Source: Phragmitibacter flavus
GTDB lineage: Bacteria; Verrucomicrobiota; Verrucomicrobiia; Verrucomicrobiales; Verrucomicrobiaceae
Assembly (NCBI RefSeq): GCF_005780165.1
Contig: NZ_VAUV01000009.1
Location: 186,001 to 250,000 of the forward strand
DNA: 64,000 bases
Direction of reading: 5' to 3'
The notes under the pieces are model-generated. The model searched no databases. It saw only the letters and a program-made list of their open reading frames with translations, and was not told where the DNA came from. Shown one piece after another: positions 1,487-61,431 of the stretch (position 1 is the stretch's first letter; every line of letters starts with the position of its first letter). Position numbers and translations under genes: made by a program.

Positions 1487-4400
1487 TCAAAAGGAGTTCT
1501 TCATGCTGGTTGAACCACCAGTGGGAACGATGCGATCTTTCTCAAAAGGCAACATTTCCTGGTTCACGTTGCGGATGCGGGCAAGATAACTGGTGCGCGG
1601 CCTGGTGCCGATGTATTTAAGCAGGTCGTAATTGCGCGGGCTGTTTTTGGCTTCGACGATCTTGGCGTCTGGATTGGCCAAGTCACCAAAAATCACGGCG
1701 TCAGCAGAGCAGGAAGCCTGACAGGCCACCTTGATCATTCCGTCCTTCACACGAAGTTCATCAGGATTATCGCGGGCTTTGGCACGCTGACGGATTTTTG
1801 CTTCTTCAAGCCGCTGCACACAATACGTGCACTTCTCGATCACTCCGCGCATGCGCACCGTGACGTTTGGGTTTTTCTGGAGCTGGATGACTTCTTGGGG
1901 CTTTTTCTCGCCCAGAGGACCGGCATAGAGGTTGCCCGTCGTGATGCCCACCACCTTGGTTTCGGTGAAAGGATTGCGCTTGTTCCAATCGAAGAAGTTA
2001 AATCGACGTGCGGTGTAAGGACAGTTGTTGGCGCAATAACGGGTGCCGATGCAGCGATTGTAAGCCATCGCGTTGAGGCCGTCTTCGGTATGCACCGTGG
2101 CATTGACCGGGCAAACCGTCTCACAGGGAGCCGATTCACATTGCTGGCAGGCCACCGGCTGACTCACCATCGAAGGGTTGTCGAGTTCGCTCATGTCGGG
2201 CTCCGACCTCACACCATCCGAAGTGGCAAAATACCGGTCCATACGGATCCAGTGCATGATGCGACCTTTGCGGACCTGGTCTTTGCCCACCACTGGGATG
2301 TTGTTTTCACTCTGACAGGCCACCGCACAGGCTGAACAACCCAGGCATTTGCTGAGGTCAATGACCATGCCCCATTGGTGTTCGTTTTCGTAGTCAAAAC
2401 CTTCAGGATTCTCTTCCGACTTCCGTCCCATCCGGCCTTTGTAAAGCGAGATGTTTGGTGGAATGTGGGAATCCATGCCCTGAGTCTGGGCAAAATCAGG
2501 ATCGCCTTCAAATTTGTCCAAGGTGCCTTCGCGAACCAGCGCGCGGCCTTCCATCGTGTAATTTTCCTGGGCGTTGGCCAGCTCGTAGTGTCCACCAGCA
2601 TTGGTCAATTGGGCTCCCGTCAGCACAAACTCATTCACGCCACTGCGCAACAGATAGCCATTGAATCCACGCTGTTCACCAATGACACTGCCGACGTTTT
2701 TCTGACCGTAGCCAAGCGGGATGGTGACCGAATCATGCGCGTGCCCAGGGCACTGGAACGCAGGAAGCGTCAAAGTTTTGTCACCAACGGTCACCGTCAC
2801 GGTGTCGCCGTCTTTCTTCAGTCCAAGGGAGGCGAAAGTGCGGGGACTGATCCACGCGGCGTTGTCCCAAGTCAACTTGGTGATCGGATCGGGAGCTTCA
2901 TGAAGCCATGGGTTGTCGATATATCGACCGTCCCACATGTTCGCCGAAGGAGCCAGCACCACCTCCACCCCGCCGGGTTTGGCCGCAGATGGCATCGGTG
3001 CTTTAGCCACGAGTCCGGCAAGCGCGCCGACATTAAACATGGCACCAGCGATCGCATAAGCCGAGTTCTTCAAAAATCCGTCACGCAATACATGGTTCCA
3101 TGACTCTTCATTCCATCCGCCAGCCAGCGCAGCAAAGCTCGCCTTGACCGCTTCATAAGCAGGATCAGCTTGAGGAGGAGCCAATGGAGCAGGCGCTCCT
3201 TCAGCAGACTCTTCCGCCGGAGGCTCAGGACTGAGACGTTTGCGACCCGCCAGGGCAAGGAGCAGATCGTTTTCTGAAATTCCGCCAAAGAGCGGGCTGA
3301 TCATCGGTTGAACGATGCTGTAAGTGCCATCGATCTGACGCACATCACCCCAAGACTCAAGATAAGTCGTGGCGGGAAGGGTCCACTGCGCAAAATGTCC
3401 GGTGCGGTTCGGGCGAAGCGCCAGCTGAACGATGCGTGGTTTCGCTTCTCTCACAGCGGCTTCAAACCCAGGAAGGTCATAAGCCGGATCGCTCTCAGCG
3501 GTGACAAAAAGATAGCCAATTTTCTTGGCTTTGATTTCCGCCAGGAGTTCGTCGGCACCGGCATACTCATCCGCGCCGGTTTGCAACAGTTCAAGCGTGG
3601 TGCCGAGGGCACCGAGCGTTTGATTGAGCGCCAGCACCAAACCTTGAACGGCTTCGCTTTGACGAGGACCGGCAAAAACCAGGGACTTGCCGCGATTGGC
3701 CACCAGATCTTTGGCCGCCGTGGCGAGCCACTCACGCAGACCAATGTCAACACTGCCCGCAAGACCTGCCGCCGCCTGCTGAAGCGCGGCGTCACCAGCA
3801 AGTTTGCCAACTTCCTCGGCCAAAATGGCCGCCGCGACGGGAATCAAACTGGCCGCTAGCGGCTTGCGATGGTCCGACATTCCACCGGTCAGGGTGTAGC
3901 GGTTCTCCACCACGTAAAGACGGTTCATCTTGTCCTTCGCAGGATCAACTGGAGCCCGCATGGACATGAAATCCTTCACCAAAAGCTCGGAGTCGGCGTC
4001 AAGACCAAGGAAATCACTATCAAGAGCGAACACGCGTTCGGCCTTTGCAAGGCGAGGAACCACGGTGACTCCAGGCCCCACCAACGCCTTCAGGGCGGCA
4101 GCCTGCTGACCACGGTGCAGCGGCTCATAAGCATACACCTTCGCCTTGGGCAAACGTGCTGCGACCTCTTTCAACAAAGCTGAACGGGTCGGAGACGTGT
4201 TGGGCGACATCAAGATCGCCACGCCTTCACCGCCATCCTTCTCCCAGATCATGTGATCCCAAGCACGAAGTTTTTTATCGAACGCCTTCCACGAAGACAC
4301 CTTGCCCTTGGCCTGCACTTCTTTAACGCGGTCCGGATTGTAAAGCTCAAGCACCGAAGCCTGCGCAAAGACATCGAGCCCGCCGCCACTGGGGTGAAGA

Positions 4401-40023: not shown

Positions 40024-40076
40024 GTCTAAGCCCGCCCCTTTCATCCCGTTCTCTCCACGCCCCCTTAGTCAGTATT

Positions 40077-40193
40077 GATCTGTGATCATCTGCGGAAATC
40101 TGTGACCATCTGTGCCAAAAAAGAACTCTCCTTAACCTCCAGAAAATTCCTTCTTCACAGATTCTCACAGATACCCACAGATTTTCACCGATA
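40077..40193. repeat. Imperfect inverted repeat, ATCTGTG/CACAGAT family
   Basis: ATCTGTG words (40079-40113) are mirrored by CACAGAT words (40156-40190). Together they form a weak large hairpin between the kinase and the glycosylase gene. Same word family as the much better structured elements at 48953 and 51678. Confidence 0.55.
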
Positions 40194-47376: not shown

Positions 47377-48948
47377 ATGAACCGCCCGACTTCCCTCCAA
47401 CAACTCGCCGCCCAAACCACCCCCTGGGACATCGCCATCATCGGCGGTGGAGCCACCGGCATGGGCATCGCCGTTGACGCCGCCTCGCGCGGCTACTCCG
47501 TCATCCTCCTCGAACAACACGACTTCGGCAAAGGCACCTCCAGCCGTTCCACCAAACTCGTCCACGGTGGCGTCCGTTACCTCCAGCAAGGCAACATCTC
47601 CCTTGTTATGGAGGCCCTCAAAGAACGCGGCCTCCTCTTGCGCAACGCCCCCCACCTTGTCCACGACCTCGCCTTCATCGTGCCCAACTACGCCTGGTGG
47701 GAAACCCCCTTCTACGGCATCGGCATGAAAATCTATGACATGCTCGCCGGCAAATACGGCTTTGGCCCCTCCCAAATCCTCTCCCGCGACGAAGTCCTCG
47801 AAAAAATCCCCACCCTCGAAACCGACGGACTGCGTGGCGGCGTCAAATACCACGACGGCCAGTTCGACGACTCCCGACTCCTCATCAACCTCGCCCAAAC
47901 CGCCGTCGAACAAGGCGCCTGTCTCATTAACTACGCCCGCGTCACCGGCTTCACCAAAGACGAAGGCTACTACCTCAACGGCCTCACCTTCACCGACCAG
48001 GAATCCGGCACCACCCACACCATCCAGGCCAAATCCATCATCAACGCCACCGGCCCGTTCTGTGACGCCGTGCGCAAAATGGACGACACCAAAGCCACCG
48101 ACATCATCTCCCCCAGCCAGGGCGTTCACATTGTCCTCAGCCGCGATTTCCTCCCCGGCAACACCGCCATCATGGTCCCCCACACCCGCGATGGACGTGT
48201 CATGTTCGCCATCCCCTGGCACGGCCACGCCCTCGTCGGCACCACCGACACCGCCATCACCGACACCCCCCTTGAACCTCTCGCCCTCGACGAAGAAATC
48301 ACCTTCATCCTCGAAACCGCCTCCAGCTATCTCGCCAAGGACCCCACCCGCGACGACATCCTTAGCGTCTTCACCGGCATCCGTCCCCTAGTCAAAGCCG
48401 GCGACGCCAACAACACCGCCGCCCTGTCCCGCGACCACACCATCCACATCGCCAGTTCCGGCCTCCTCACCATCGCCGGCGGCAAATGGACCACCTATCG
48501 CAAAATGGCCGAAGACGCCGTCGACCACGCCATCGTCCTTGCCCACATCGAAGAACGTCCCTGCATCACCAAAGACCTTCACCTCCACGGCTTCCACCAG
48601 CACTCCGCCAACTTCGGCGAACTCTCCTACTACGGCTCCGACGCCCGTTCCATCGAGCAACTCATTCGCGACAACCCCGACCTCGGCAAACCACTCCACC
48701 CCGACCTCCCCATCGTCGCCGCCCAAGTCATCTGGGCCGCTAGGCATGAAATGGCCCGCACCGTCGAAGACTTCCTGGCCCGCCGCACCCGCGCCCTCTT
48801 CCTAAACTCCAAAGCCTCCCAGTCCATGGCCCCCGAAGTCGCCCGACTCCTCGCTCAAGAGTTACACCAAGACGAAACCTGGCAACAACTCCAGCTCGCC
48901 GACTTCGAGAAAACTCTGGTCGCCTTTCAAGCCCCCAAAGCCAACTAA
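47377..48948 (+). CDS. glpD: FAD-dependent glycerol-3-phosphate dehydrogenase
   Basis: 523 residues. FAD-binding IIGGGATGMGIAVDAASRG is near residue 18, followed by SRSTKLVHGGVRYL, a GlpD hallmark, and later GGKWTTYRKMAEDAVD. Oxidises glycerol 3-phosphate to dihydroxyacetone phosphate with transfer to the quinone pool at the membrane. Completes the glp pathway with glpF and glpK. Converges on the ABC-permease gene across a large inverted repeat. Confidence 0.96.
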   Translation: MNRPTSLQQLAAQTTPWDIAIIGGGATGMGIAVDAASRGYSVILLEQHDFGKGTSSRSTKLVHGGVRYLQQGNISLVMEALKERGLLLRNAPHLVHDLAFIVPNYAWWETPFYGIGMKIYDMLAGKYGFGPSQILSRDEVLEKIPTLETDGLRGGVKYHDGQFDDSRLLINLAQTAVEQGACLINYARVTGFTKDEGYYLNGLTFTDQESGTTHTIQAKSIINATGPFCDAVRKMDDTKATDIISPSQGVHIVLSRDFLPGNTAIMVPHTRDGRVMFAIPWHGHALVGTTDTAITDTPLEPLALDEEITFILETASSYLAKDPTRDDILSVFTGIRPLVKAGDANNTAALSRDHTIHIASSGLLTIAGGKWTTYRKMAEDAVDHAIVLAHIEERPCITKDLHLHGFHQHSANFGELSYYGSDARSIEQLIRDNPDLGKPLHPDLPIVAAQVIWAARHEMARTVEDFLARRTRALFLNSKASQSMAPEVARLLAQELHQDETWQQLQLADFEKTLVAFQAPKAN

Positions 48949-48952
48949 GTTC

Positions 48953-49140
48953 AAACCACAAATGGACACGAATTTACACGAATAGTTTCTTCTGAATTTT
49001 TATCTGTGTTTATCTGAGTCCATCTGTGGTTCTTAGATGTTAAAGCTCAAGTCCACTAACCACAGATGGACTCAGATAAACACAGATAGCTTCCGTTAAT
49101 TAACTCCCTATTCGTGTAAATTCGTGTCCATTCGTGGTTT
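48953..49140. repeat. Large nested inverted repeat between converging genes
   Basis: Left arm 48953-49031 and right arm 49058-49140. The outer 33 bp pair with one mismatch, then an unpaired 16/20-nt bubble, then an inner 30 bp pair perfectly around a 26-nt loop. The inner and outer units are themselves homologous (AACCAC, then ATGGAC and ACACxxAT words). It overlaps the permease stop codon by 2 nt and could serve as a two-way terminator or be a mobile repeat. Confidence 0.93.
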
Positions 49141-50098
49141 AACTCCCCCTCCTCACCCCCACCCGCCTGACGCCCTCATCGACCATCACCGCGATCAAGA
49201 TCACCGCGCCAATGATCGCAAACTCCAACTGCGTCGATAATCCCAACACATTGATCGCATTATACAGCACCCGCATCAACGCCGCGCCAATGATCACTCC
49301 CAGCACACTGCCCTCACCTCCCCGCAAACTGCACCCGCCGAGCACCGCCGCCGCGATCGCATACAGCTCATAAAAATTCCCCTGCGCCGCCGGCTGCACC
49401 GAATTCACATCCAGCGCAAACAACACCCCGCCGACCCCCGCCAGCAACGAGCACAACACATAAGCCAGCACCGTCATCCGCTCCGTGCGAATGCCGCTGT
49501 ATCGCGCCGCCTCCTCATTGCGACCCAACGCCAGCAGGTGCCGACCCCACACCGTCTTGTTCAGAAACACCGCCGCGATCACCGCAATCCCCAACAAAAT
49601 CAGCAACGGCACCGGAAATCGGTAATCCCCAACAAACTCCACCCTCCCCGTCGCCAGCCAGCGGAGCCCATCATAATCCCCGCCAAACCCCACCGTCTCA
49701 TCGTGCGTCAACCACCGCGCCAGCCCCCGGTAGATCAACAACCCGCAAAGCGTCACCACAAACGGTTGCAAGCGCATCTTCGTGATCAGCACCCCGTGCA
49801 CCAAACCAATCAACCCCGACACCAACACCACCGCCGCCAAAGCCATCGGAATACTCCACCCATTCTTCACCAACAACCAGGGCAACAACGTCCCCGTCAA
49901 CCCCACCACCGATCCAATGCTCAAATCAATCCCCCCAGTAATGATCACCATCGCCGCCCCAATGCTCAGAATCCCAAACAGCGCCGTCCAGTTTACCAAA
50001 TTCTCCACATTATAAGGCCGCAAAAAATTCGGATTCATCCAAGCCGTCAACGCACAAACCAGCCCCAGCAAAATCGTAATTCCAAAAGTCTTCGACAT
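49139..50098 (-). CDS. Sugar ABC transporter permease, RbsC-like
   Basis: 319 residues. Eight to ten membrane helices with the family signature GIDLSIGSVVGLTGTL (about residue 63), GRNEEAARYSGI cytoplasmic loop and AVLGGCSLRGGEGSVLG. Forms the membrane channel of a ribose/galactose/xylose-type importer. ATG 50098 is chosen over an upstream codon at 50119 because GGGAG lies 7 nt before it. Last gene of a three-gene operon (binding protein, ATPase, permease). Confidence 0.9.
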   Translation of the reverse strand: MSKTFGITILLGLVCALTAWMNPNFLRPYNVENLVNWTALFGILSIGAAMVIITGGIDLSIGSVVGLTGTLLPWLLVKNGWSIPMALAAVVLVSGLIGLVHGVLITKMRLQPFVVTLCGLLIYRGLARWLTHDETVGFGGDYDGLRWLATGRVEFVGDYRFPVPLLILLGIAVIAAVFLNKTVWGRHLLALGRNEEAARYSGIRTERMTVLAYVLCSLLAGVGGVLFALDVNSVQPAAQGNFYELYAIAAAVLGGCSLRGGEGSVLGVIIGAALMRVLYNAINVLGLSTQLEFAIIGAVILIAVMVDEGVRRVGVRRGS

Positions 50099-50114
50099 AA
50101 AAAATCTCCCTTCA

Positions 50115-50149
50115 CTCACTGCTCACTGCTCACTGCCCACTGCCCACTG
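50115..50149. repeat. Heptanucleotide tandem repeat between the ABC ATPase and permease genes
   Basis: Three CTCACTG copies and two CCCACTG copies; on the coding (minus) strand they read CAGTGAG/CAGTGGG and lie 17-51 nt before the permease start. Here a real Shine-Dalgarno sequence lies between repeat and ATG. Confidence 0.92.
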
Positions 50150-50150
50150 C

Positions 50151-51662
50151 CTACCTCCTCCCCGGCAACCCGCGATGATGCCCCAAAGCCAGCGACATGA
50201 TCGCCTCCTCATTGATCCCCTCCCCCTGCAACACCCCCATCAACTCCCCTTCGTGCATCACCAGCACCCGATCCGACAACGCAATCACCTCCTCCATCTC
50301 ACTGCTCACAAAAAGGATCGCCATGCCCTGACCCGCAAGCCTCTCCATCAACTGATAAATCTCCCGCTTCGCCCCCACATCAATTCCCCGCGTCGGCTCA
50401 TCCAGCAACAACACCCCCGGCCCCAAAGCCAGCCATTTGCCCAACGCCACCTTTTGCTGATTCCCCCCCGACAGGGTCCCCACCTTGGTCTTCAACGACG
50501 CCGACTTGATCTTCAACAACTCCGCCATCCGCTCCGCATCCCGTTTCTCAATCCCTCCATCCACCCACACCCCGCCCCGCGCATGCCTGGACAAACCCGG
50601 CAGCCCTACATTCCACTTCACCGACTCCTCCAAAAACACCCCCAGCTTCTTGCGATCCTCCGGCACCAACGCCATCCCCGCCGACATCGCATCACGCGGA
50701 TGTTTGATCCGCACCTTCTCTCCATTCACCAAAACATCGCCACCCACCGGCGGCTCGATCCCGAACAAGGCCTGCAACACCTCCGTCCTTCCCGACCCCA
50801 CCAGCCCCGCCAGTCCCAAGATCTCCCCCTGTCTCAAATCGAACCCAAACTTCCGCTCCGGATGCGCCTTCGTCCGCAACCCCTGCACATCCAAAACCAC
50901 CCACCCTTTTTTCTGCGGCGTCCGCTCATACACCTGCGAAAGATCACGACCCACCATCATCCGCACCATCGCATCATGATCCACCTCAAACCGCAACAAC
51001 TCCCCCACATTGCAACCATCCCGCAATCCCACCACCCGGTCCGCCAGCTTCTCCACCTCACCCAGCCGATGGGAAATATACAAAATCCCCAACCCGCGTT
51101 TTTTCAGATCCGCGATCACCTCATAAAGTTTCGCCACCTCGCTGGCCGACAAACTCGACGTCGGCTCATCCATGATGATCACCTTCGCGTCCATCGACAA
51201 CGCCTTCGCAATCTCCACCAACTGCTGCTGACCCAACGACAACTTCGACACCGCCGTGTCCGCCTTAAAATTCGCCCCCAACCTCTTCAAGATCACCGCC
51301 GTCTTTTCCCGCATCACCTTTTTCTGCACCAACCCCCACTTTCGCGGCTCACGCCCCAGCCACACATTCCCCGCCACATCCAGATTATCCGCCAGATTCA
51401 GCTCCTGATGAATCAACGCAATCCCCAAATCCTGCGCCTCCTTCACAGACCTCAAAATCACCTCATCCCCCTCAAGAAAAACCTTCCCCTCATCCGCTTG
51501 ACCGATCCCCGCCAGCACCTTCATCAACGTGCTTTTCCCCGCCCCATTTTCCCCAATCACCGCCACCACCTCGCCCTTCCCCAAACTCAAACTTACATCC
51601 GAAAGCGCCAGCACTCCTGGAAAGCGTTTCGTCAAATTGATCGCGCGCAGCAAGTCAGCCAT
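50151..51662 (-). CDS. Sugar ABC transporter ATP-binding protein, RbsA-like
   Basis: 503 residues with two ABC cassettes. First: Walker A GENGAGKSTLMK, signature LSLGQQQLVEIAKAL, Walker B VIIMDEPTSSL. Second: degenerate Walker A GLVGSGRTEVL, signature LSGGNQQKVALGKWL, Walker B LLLDEPTRGID. This tandem layout is typical of monosaccharide importers (RbsA/MglA/XylG). Sits between the binding-protein and permease genes. Confidence 0.93.
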   Translation of the reverse strand: MADLLRAINLTKRFPGVLALSDVSLSLGKGEVVAVIGENGAGKSTLMKVLAGIGQADEGKVFLEGDEVILRSVKEAQDLGIALIHQELNLADNLDVAGNVWLGREPRKWGLVQKKVMREKTAVILKRLGANFKADTAVSKLSLGQQQLVEIAKALSMDAKVIIMDEPTSSLSASEVAKLYEVIADLKKRGLGILYISHRLGEVEKLADRVVGLRDGCNVGELLRFEVDHDAMVRMMVGRDLSQVYERTPQKKGWVVLDVQGLRTKAHPERKFGFDLRQGEILGLAGLVGSGRTEVLQALFGIEPPVGGDVLVNGEKVRIKHPRDAMSAGMALVPEDRKKLGVFLEESVKWNVGLPGLSRHARGGVWVDGGIEKRDAERMAELLKIKSASLKTKVGTLSGGNQQKVALGKWLALGPGVLLLDEPTRGIDVGAKREIYQLMERLAGQGMAILFVSSEMEEVIALSDRVLVMHEGELMGVLQGEGINEEAIMSLALGHHRGLPGRR

Positions 51663-51677
51663 AAATCAGTTTCAAAC

Positions 51678-51755
51678 AACCACAGATGAACGCAGATAGA
51701 CACAAATAAAATTTCAGGGAAACCCATTCGTGTAAATTCGTGTCCATTCGTGGTT
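51678..51755. repeat. Inverted repeat in the ABC operon leader of the ATPase
   Basis: AACCACAGATGAACGCAGAT (51678-51697) with the following GACACAAAT word is mirrored by ATTCGTG words ending ATTCGTGGTT (51726-51755). Same family as 48953-49140 but one arm pair only. Lies between the binding-protein stop and the ATPase start. Confidence 0.8.
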
Positions 51756-51771
51756 GATCTTCCCCCTCACC

Positions 51772-52773
51772 TCACTTCACCAACGCCTTCAACTCCTCCC
51801 AAAACACCGCCACGTCCTCCTTCTTCACCGCCTTCGCCGGCACCTCCAAAAACTTCGACTCCGGCACCACCGAGTTGTCCCCCTTCGCCAGCGCCGCCAG
51901 AATGCGCACACTCTCATACCCATAACGATACGGACTCTGCACCACCGTCGCATGAATCGCCCCCTCCTGCACCCCGCGCAACGTATCATCCTCTTCATCA
52001 AACCCCACGATCTTCACCGCCCCCACTCTTCCCGCCTCTTTCACCGCCGCAAAAATCTGCGGCGTGTTATACGAAAACAACCCCACCAAACACCCCACAT
52101 CCGGATACCGCGTCAACGTGTCCTGCACATTCGCCTTCGCCTTCGCCACATCCGCCTCATCCGTGCGCGTCCCCAAAATCACATAACGCCCCCCTTCAAT
52201 CACCGCATCCGCCGCATCCTCCCCCGGCGAACCCACCGGTCGATCCAGCAACTCATCAATCACCCCCTGCCTGCGTTGCTTCGCATTCAACTGCCCCGCT
52301 CTCCCCACAAAAAACATCACCTTCCCTCCATCAGGCAGCGCCTCCTTCACCAGCTTCCCACAAAGCCGACCCGCCTGATAATTGTCCATCCCCACAAAAC
52401 ACCGCCTCGGTGAATCCGGCGCATCACTGTCCTGCGTGATCAAAATCGTCTGCTTCGCCATCTCCGTCATCAGCTCCAACTGGTTCGCCGGATCCGCCGG
52501 ACTGAACGCAATCCCATCCACCCCGCGCGCCAAAAGTTCCTCCACCATGCGCTTCTGATCCGAAGCCCCGTTCGCCGGCATCCGCACCTCCACGTCCACC
52601 CCAAACTCCTCACCTGCCTTGCGTGCCCCCTTCTCCGCAATCGTCCAGAATGGCGCAATCGCATTCCCCACATAAGCCACCCTCAATTTTCTCTCCCCGT
52701 CAGGTTCCTTCGGCCCACACCCCAACAGCATCGAAATCGCCAAACACCCCAACGACAAAAACAAAAGCTTCAT
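51772..52773 (-). CDS. Sugar ABC transporter substrate-binding lipoprotein
   Basis: 333 residues. Lipoprotein signal peptide with lipobox MLLGC near residue 19, then a type I periplasmic binding-protein fold of the RbsB class (LRVAYVGNAIAPFWTIAEKGA, GVDGIAFSPADPANQ, VKIVGFDEEDDTLRGVQEGAI). It captures a monosaccharide for the permease and ATPase downstream. Substrate is not assignable; ribose, galactose or similar is possible. First gene of its operon. Confidence 0.9.
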   Translation of the reverse strand: MKLLFLSLGCLAISMLLGCGPKEPDGERKLRVAYVGNAIAPFWTIAEKGARKAGEEFGVDVEVRMPANGASDQKRMVEELLARGVDGIAFSPADPANQLELMTEMAKQTILITQDSDAPDSPRRCFVGMDNYQAGRLCGKLVKEALPDGGKVMFFVGRAGQLNAKQRRQGVIDELLDRPVGSPGEDAADAVIEGGRYVILGTRTDEADVAKAKANVQDTLTRYPDVGCLVGLFSYNTPQIFAAVKEAGRVGAVKIVGFDEEDDTLRGVQEGAIHATVVQSPYRYGYESVRILAALAKGDNSVVPESKFLEVPAKAVKKEDVAVFWEELKALVK

Positions 52774-61284: not shown

Positions 61285-61340
61285 CCGGTAGGGATGCGCT
61301 GCGCCGCGTCCCAAACTGAATTGGGCGGAGGTGGCGCGGA
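61285..61340 (+). repeat. REP-like element, copy A of second family
   Basis: Begins CCGGTAGGGATGCGCTGCG and contains the hairpin GGGATGCG/CGCGTCCC followed by a GGGCGGAGG word. Related copies at 61373-61431 (inverted) and 62017-62071 (direct) surround the transposase gene. Confidence 0.85.
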
Positions 61341-61372
61341 TGCCCGGTATCCAATTGCCTCTGGATGTCAAT

Positions 61373-61431
61373 CTCGTCCCACCGCCTCCGCCCGCAGACA
61401 AATGGGACGCGACGCAGCGCATCCCTACCGG
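61373..61431 (-). repeat. REP-like element, inverted copy B
   Basis: Reverse-complement of copy A with small differences; with copy A it could fold into a larger hairpin upstream of the transposase start. Confidence 0.82.

Follow-up and report, generated by a model that had tools for sequence, protein, structure and literature searches.

The repeat at 48953-49140 of the window (the whole stretch of 64,000 nucleotides of Phragmitibacter flavus DNA that was analysed) and its relatives elsewhere in the genome are probably non-autonomous copies of an element encoding a GxxExxY nuclease, and would work in a manner resembling REPIN/RAYT systems with an unrelated enzyme. The GxxExxY nuclease is presumably the mover of the repeats and would bind and cut their iteron arms. 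The repeats, together with the bracketing of GxxExxY genes by such arms, suggest that a widely distributed form of mobile DNA has gone largely unnoticed.

The outer arms of the repeat (48953-48985 and 49108-49140) are 33 nt each with one mismatch, and the inner arms (49001-49031 and 49058-49088) match perfectly. Within a span of 260 nt, the window has no longer inverted repeats than these two; in 10 windows shuffled in two-base blocks, the longest inverted repeat reached 13 nt at most. An inverted-repeat search confirmed the outer arms and the 26-nt loop given in the original prediction. The inner arms were perfect as stated, with a length of 31 nt rather than 30, and the size of 80 bp has to be corrected to a full span of 188 bp. 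Four 30-nt units are arranged in the order + - + - over 48954-49139, and inner and outer units are identical at 22 of 30 positions, which bears out the claimed homology of the arms and their division into four units of about 30 nt. Units A and D belong to type T1 (CACGAAT; form AACCACnnATGGACACGAATTTACACGAAT), and B and C to type T2 (CACAGAT; form AACCACAGATGGACTCAGATAAACACAGAT). Each unit consists of three steps of a 10-bp direct iteron (nnACACnnAT), and one unit end reads GTGG on the opposite strand. B and C are identical over 30/30 positions; a variant CTCAGAT iteron is common to both, which suggests copying between the two arms.

The RNA fold of the whole 188 nt has a z of -17.6, and none of 200 shuffles was equally good. 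The single doublets of about 80 bp in the window fold weakly as DNA (z -2.8, -1.7 and -0.4) because T1 faces T2 in them. Units A and C alone do not fold beyond shuffles (z -1.0 each), and so lack the imperfect palindrome of a REP unit.

Table 1. Repeat units, neighbouring genes and related arrays (window positions unless a locus is named)
Feature	Position	Strand
Weak relative: CACAGAT-type 10-nt iterons, (-) 40068-40117 and (+) 40153-40192	40068..40192	.
GlpD-like FAD-dependent oxidoreductase (PF01266, PF16901), stopping 4 bp short of the repeat	47377..48948	+
Unit A, T1 (AACCAC + CACGAAT iterons), in left outer arm 48953-48985	48954..48983	+
Unit B, T2 (CACAGAT iterons), in left inner arm 49001-49031	49002..49031	-
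Loop between inner arms, 26 nt	49032..49057	.
Unit C, T2, in right inner arm 49058-49088	49058..49087	+
Unit D, T1, in right outer arm 49108-49140	49110..49139	-
ABC permease (PF02653); stop codon 49139-49141 overlaps the last two bases of the repeat	49139..50119	-
ABC ATPase (PF00005, two stretches), beside the second element	50151..51662	-
Second element, T2 unit, in the gap between substrate-binding and ATPase genes of the ABC transporter operon	51678..51707	+
Second element, T1 unit	51726..51755	-
Periplasmic substrate-binding protein (PF13407), beside the second element	51772..52773	-
Further arrays of the second type	L031 ~1980-2077; L033 ~1932-2035; L042 ~1425-1511	

The position of the repeat between converging genes and its overlap with the permease stop, both noted originally, are confirmed. 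The relative predicted at 51678-51755 is also real: T2(+) and T1(-) stand 18 nt apart there, with 26/30 and 29/30 identity to the reference units. The weaker relative placed at about 40077-40193 is related to the family and represents a distinct type. Its array, at 40068-40192, keeps the 10-nt CACAGAT period, lacks AACCAC/GGACAC, reaches 20-21/30 identity to the units and has its arms oriented the opposite way to those of the main repeat. A second array type is thus present in the genome, with CACAGAT-like 10-nt iterons, variable spacers, no AACCAC start and arms in the order - then +.

The location between converging genes, the very stable fold of the 188 nt and the second copy within an operon would also suit a repeat whose chief task is to terminate the glpD-like and permease transcripts in both directions or, as a hairpin, to stabilise these mRNAs. 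REPs are often located inside operons. Such a function is nevertheless highly improbable as the main one, since the gene-bearing form, the spread between phyla and the turnover of sites would be left unexplained by it. Moreover, a consensus scan of 48700-49400 (G+C-rich stem, short loop, T run) gave 0 terminator-like sites, so that the bidirectional terminator of the original prediction found no support; scanning of the same interval gave no promoter-like site. A terminator-type side effect would be compatible with mobility of the repeat. An Rfam scan of 48800-51900 produced 5 matches to miRNA, snoRNA and sRNA families, all below the gathering score and read as generic long-hairpin matches.

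The repeat belongs to a dispersed family, as had been claimed. In a genome-wide search, blastn with the 188 bp gave 98 matches on many contigs, many of which count one copy twice, by strand or by arm; 47 sites fitted a strict triple-iteron pattern, and 0 the reversed control pattern. The usual form in 33 stretches and the window is a +/- doublet with 15-60 nt between units, and singles and compounds occur too; two inverted units forming a REPIN-like doublet were found at many of these places. The order T1+ T2- T2+ T1- is repeated at L022, and T1+ T2- T2+ occurs at L021; thus, the nested arrangement is not unique to the window. As in MITEs, the copies possess terminal inverted repeats, carry no gene and have a gene-bearing partner in the same genome. 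The non-autonomous mobile repeat suggested in the original prediction is supported by this dispersal, by the gene-bearing form with the same ends and by comparable sites that are filled in some genomes and empty in others.

Repeats of this kind occur beside GxxExxY genes, which prompted a search for such a gene. The sole PF13366 match found in the genome lies at L037:3006-3461, on a contig other than that of the window. Two identical inverted T2 units, at L037:3008-3037 and 3416-3445, bracket it exactly, forming an element of 438 bp with identical 30-bp ends. The ORF of 151 aa extends into both arms, so annotated protein ends can consist of repeat sequence. The protein scores 121 bits with TIGR04256 (cut-off 35) and 114 bits with PF13366 (cut-off 22).

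The bracketing was then found in other genomes by local alignment of one flank against the reverse complement of the other, a score of at least 18 being counted. In a first set, 18/31 loci of relatives were bracketed versus 0/124 offset windows. In named genomes, the loci of which were the best of 586 confirmed ones, the counts were 54/76 versus 7/270. An extended set of higher-scoring loci gave 66/85 for relatives and 121/161 overall versus 7/305 offset windows (Fisher P ~1e-66, with loci treated as independent). Neither group in it is a random sample: the 85 loci of relatives were drawn largely from the top scorers among 263 matches, and the 80 named loci were those that ranked best among 586 confirmed. 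L068, L079 and L081 had been excluded beforehand (contig ends), and for 4 of the 165 loci a contig end was no more than 100 bp away. The brackets in the extended set are inverted repeats, mostly iterons, and about a quarter of its GxxExxY loci (40/161) have no clear flanking repeat. PIN genes taken as a control were bracketed in 0 of 24 cases (6/30 were too short), and RAYT genes in 1 of 13, by an unrelated repeat.

A more specific test required CACRRA iterons on either side of the gene, in the inverted order expected. These were found at 12/29 and 37/76 GxxExxY loci of two sets, versus 1/116 and 2/270 of their offset windows. None was found at 26 IVP or 13 RAYT loci, or in 104 and 52 offset windows of these, respectively. 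The opposite order was seen at 4/29 and 5/76 GxxExxY loci. Among 113 labelled loci, 81 had single outward arms on both sides and 14 had a doublet at each end. The latter could represent the plan A-B-gene-C-D, of which the window repeat could be a gene-less version; they may also be simply two neighbouring doublets.

The iteron type follows the clade of the protein. A tree of 116 domains was built by a quick method, with 48 of its 111 inner branches unresolved; 49 of the 165 loci were left out of it for want of a clear iteron label (48) or because of a stop. The iteron's last letter needs 6 changes on this tree, whereas 300 shuffles needed 39.5 on average and never fewer than 35; for the full word, the figures are 52 versus 81 (minimum 75). 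For the 62 relatives alone, the last letter again changes 6 times, versus 33.7 (minimum 27); the signal comes from them because G is the final letter at all 54 named loci. Genome identity does not track the tree (54 changes versus 53.3 shuffled), and phylum follows it partly among the named loci (24 versus 36.0). The protein of this genome (CACAGAT) is the sister of that of G040 (CACGAAT), which matches the adjacency of T2 and T1 in the window. The gene and its flanks have been passed on jointly and have stayed together across deep divergence. Since they are physically linked, tracking on the tree need not mean recognition; binding of the iterons by the protein would be the natural, not the sole, reading of it.

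The presence of the gene also goes with that of the repeats. In 77 genomes, strict triple-iteron sites were found in 51/64 genomes with a PF13366 match versus 1/13 without (P 1.5e-6). The genus g12 accounts for 8 of the 13 gene-less genomes, and with g12 omitted the counts were 51/63 versus 1/5 (P 0.0095). Within the genus g8, strict sites occurred in 24/26 genomes with the gene versus 0/2 without (P 0.016). Strict CACRRA sites were absent from 13 of the 64 gene-carrying genomes. The types of solitary and gene-borne arrays match weakly within genomes (letter match 0.79 versus 0.62 permuted, P 0.028, in 17 genomes, from hand-made lists and among the matches listed).

The predicted model of the GxxExxY protein (pLDDT 95.7) has a restriction-endonuclease-like PD-(D/E)XK fold. 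Its best structural match is 4ic1, the Cas4 protein SSO0001 (Z 9.6 over 96 residues). The next ones are the Holliday-junction resolvase Hjc 1gef (Z 7.1) and the fdxN-element excision controlling factor 2okf (Z 6.1), values below 8 being such as may mean merely a common arrangement. Foldseek used by itself found nothing at E 0.001 or better, and no solved structure was related by sequence at E up to 1. The similarity with Hjc suggests that the protein may cut the cruciform or hairpin DNA that inverted arms could form. E23 (164/165 loci), D63 (165/165), D/E73 (164/165) and K75 (161/165) are near-invariant, and the full motif set is intact in 160/165. The dN/dS values of five pairs, 0.05-0.13 with dS saturated in two, indicate that the protein is kept by selection. 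The copy of this genome has D73 and T75, threonine standing in for the catalytic lysine, and movement of the family may therefore have ceased here. A role as a defence system was rejected, as two of three proteins had no PADLOC match and the third had weak Cas4 matches (E 0.008 and 0.035). Carriage by phages and plasmids looks rare, with 1 confirmed relative among viral contigs scanned by pattern and, for one query, matches in 8 of 72,556 plasmid records.

Genes of another family, 23S_rRNA_IVP (PF05635), are bracketed in a similar way by other iterons at 16/26 loci of relatives, or 20/26 with wider flanks (4/30 were too short). No recurrent 6-mer is common to the iterons of 26 IVP and 158 GxxExxY loci. 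The IVP four-helix-bundle genes, L083-L112 in relatives and L234, L235 and L236 in this genome, lie away from rRNA as far as seen, and their bracket words include AGTTCTTGGTTC, AAGGGATAAGGG, AGTGAAAAGTGA and TCAGACTATCAGAC, quite unlike those of GxxExxY. As IVP genes are bracketed alike, the plan is more general, and there is room for a common mover acting in trans.

Some other machinery could then move the repeats in trans, the GxxExxY and IVP genes being passengers captured between arms. The like bracketing of two small protein families that are unrelated to each other would fit this explanation, as would the abundance of repeats in a genome the GxxExxY protein of which has lost its catalytic lysine. 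It is still rather unlikely, because the iteron words of the two families do not overlap in the compared loci and the iteron type follows the GxxExxY clade and not the genome, which a common mover would not predict. Furthermore, no such units lie near the 13 RAYT (PF01797) loci of the genome.

A likeness to the intervening sequences (IVS) of 23S rRNA also has to be considered. According to one description, an IVS is selfish, 428 nt long and bounded by terminal inverted repeats, with an S23 ORF in its loop (PMC4990558). This is the plan of the 438-bp GxxExxY element, the likeness, as far as that description goes, extending to the size of about 430 bp, the terminal inverted repeats, the one small ORF in the loop, and the sporadic and selfish nature (PMC4990558). 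The element could thus be imagined as IVS-like at the RNA level: its transcript would fold and be excised by RNase III, the insertion would be tolerated, and it would spread via an RNA intermediate with a reverse transcriptase acting in trans. The similar brackets of S23/IVP genes agree with this. It is scarcely credible, however, given that GxxExxY resembles DNA nucleases and that the element studied is not in rRNA, lying between two aldehyde dehydrogenase genes and encoding GxxExxY, not S23. Whereas IVS, in the account cited (PMC4990558), are located in rRNA and encode the four-helix-bundle S23, the element considered here lies between genes of the chromosome and has iteron arms and a nuclease gene.

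Comparison of relatives gave filled, empty and exchanged sites. The gap of the second element, between the binding-protein and ATPase genes, is 109 bp in the window, 11 bp in G018, G001 and G011, and 24-25 bp in G002 and G012, and it holds 496 bp of other sequence in G004. The junction of the two aldehyde dehydrogenase genes was compared in 30 genomes. The GxxExxY element is present in 4 of them (G000, and G040, G078 and G032 with CACGAAT arms). Classed by eye, 9/30 have gene-less inverted repeats of the ACAGGATT type and 2/30 another iteron type. The junction is 5-51 bp without a repeat in 6/30, another 5/30 have longer gaps outside these classes, and in 4/30 the second gene was not found. 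Gain is indistinguishable from loss at the compared sites, the boundaries of which are blurred because the comparisons are between species or genera. No target-site duplication was seen by eye around 16 elements or at the compared sites, the genomes being too diverged to fix boundaries, and no excision product or intermediate was found.

In the genus g2, a junction which we take to be pheS-pheT, named from the sequence, has flanks 95% identical between G011 and G001, while the GxxExxY genes are 62% identical and the iterons differ. At a second g2 site, flanks of 92-93% identity frame genes of 71%; in G011 versus G018, the element parts are 99-100% and the flanks 91-94% identical. These contrasts look like exchange of whole elements at fixed places, whereas the L082/L245 pair shows no contrast of identity between element and flank. 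At the putative pheS-pheT junction, L229 (G011), L228 (G001) and L075 (G018) have different GxxExxY elements and iterons and flanks 90-95% identical, and several further genomes seem to use this junction. Close g2 pairs, searched for target-site duplications, have shared elements, one filled or replaced site and one rearranged site, with no clean empty site. In a 190-bp family of g2, the outer arms are CACAGAG; 8 of 11 aligned copies have ACAGAATTA inner arms on both sides, one type being nested in another as in the window. One such site in G011 holds an unrelated GAATTAG-type repeat instead.

The turnover of sites also bears on a regulatory explanation, in which the iterons are operators through which GxxExxY regulates itself and the genes beside solitary copies. 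Direct 10-bp iterons do resemble sites for a protein on one face of the helix, and the repeats adjoin genes, one of them inside an operon. It is decidedly unlikely that this is their function, since arrays stand on both sides of the gene in inverted order, the catalytic residues are near-invariant, and the corresponding gaps of relatives lack the element or hold another type, which would not be seen in a conserved regulon.

With the GxxExxY element as the preferred source of the repeats, the following mechanism may be proposed. The 188-bp repeat is a compound of two facing non-autonomous elements of about 80 bp, A-B and C-D, each arm of an element being a 30-nt array of three 10-bp iterons; in the gene-bearing form, the GxxExxY gene fills the space between inverted copies of the same array. 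The protein would bind the iterons, spaced by one turn of the helix, on inverted arms that are paired and may be extruded as a cruciform, and would cut there. Through this cutting, elements whose arms match could be copied, or transferred, into intergenic gaps, and gene-less copies with such arms would spread in trans.

A parallel exists in RAYT genes, on either side of which stand inverted REPs that vary in concert with the gene (PMC2817692, PMC3116915). The systems share, so far as those two reports describe them, dispersed, intergenic, non-autonomous inverted doublets capable of forming hairpins, a nuclease gene between two inverted copies of the repeat, co-variation of repeat and protein, and the occurrence of repeats together with the gene (PMC2817692, PMC3116915). 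They differ in the enzyme, which is PD-(D/E)XK here and, as described for RAYT, a Y1/HUH tyrosine transposase. The unit also differs, three direct 10-bp iterons standing in place of the described palindrome headed by GT(A/G)G. An origin from RAYT was rejected because no unit lies close to the PF01797 loci of this genome, where the best unit match is 16-19/30.

For MITEs of Thiomargarita, derivation from a parent encoding a PD-(D/E)XK_2 nuclease (YhgA, PF12784) has been suggested (PMC4853749). These, too, are short inverted-repeat elements with a putative PD-(D/E)XK nuclease parent, which belongs to another nuclease family; the part of that report concerned with them describes 19-bp inverted repeats with 10-bp direct repeats and no iteron arrays (PMC4853749). 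No link between GxxExxY and repeats was found in the open-library literature searched.

It is quite possible, if short of probable, that GxxExxY proteins are the movers of an unrecognised class of mobile hairpins spanning phyla, with clade-specific arrays of iterons of about 10 bp read by a PD-(D/E)XK enzyme and types that invade, replace and nest in the same gaps. If this were true, many cryptic bacterial repeats of the CACAGAG, CACAGAT, CACGGAA and ACAGGATT types would be products of GxxExxY, and a parallel IVP/S23 class with other iterons would share the plan. The link to GxxExxY supplies a candidate maker and a candidate recognition code for a family of short intergenic repeats found in many phyla, in which the protein clade predicts the iteron type, and a candidate role for GxxExxY, a common family with no known function in the literature searched. 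Elements that lie in operon gaps and are swapped between relatives also bear on the evolution of gene ends and spacers.

The REPs tagged with GTAG or CGTC, known from Verrucomicrobia too, resemble these units in being short extragenic repeats of high copy number (PMC3733652). They differ in having a GTAG or CGTC end and, as characterised in that source, mostly a stem of 6-9 bp inside the unit (PMC3733652), whereas the present units are unfolded when alone. An inverted doublet with 19-bp perfect arms around GGTAGGGATGCGCTGCG, at 61285-61431 of the window, has the look of a GTAG-headed REP and is unrelated to the main repeat. The best RAYT-like gene of the genome, L006 (G000:C10:36567-36908), is flanked by an inverted GCCCCAACGGGGCGACCT repeat, which points to a separate REP/RAYT system beside the iteron family.
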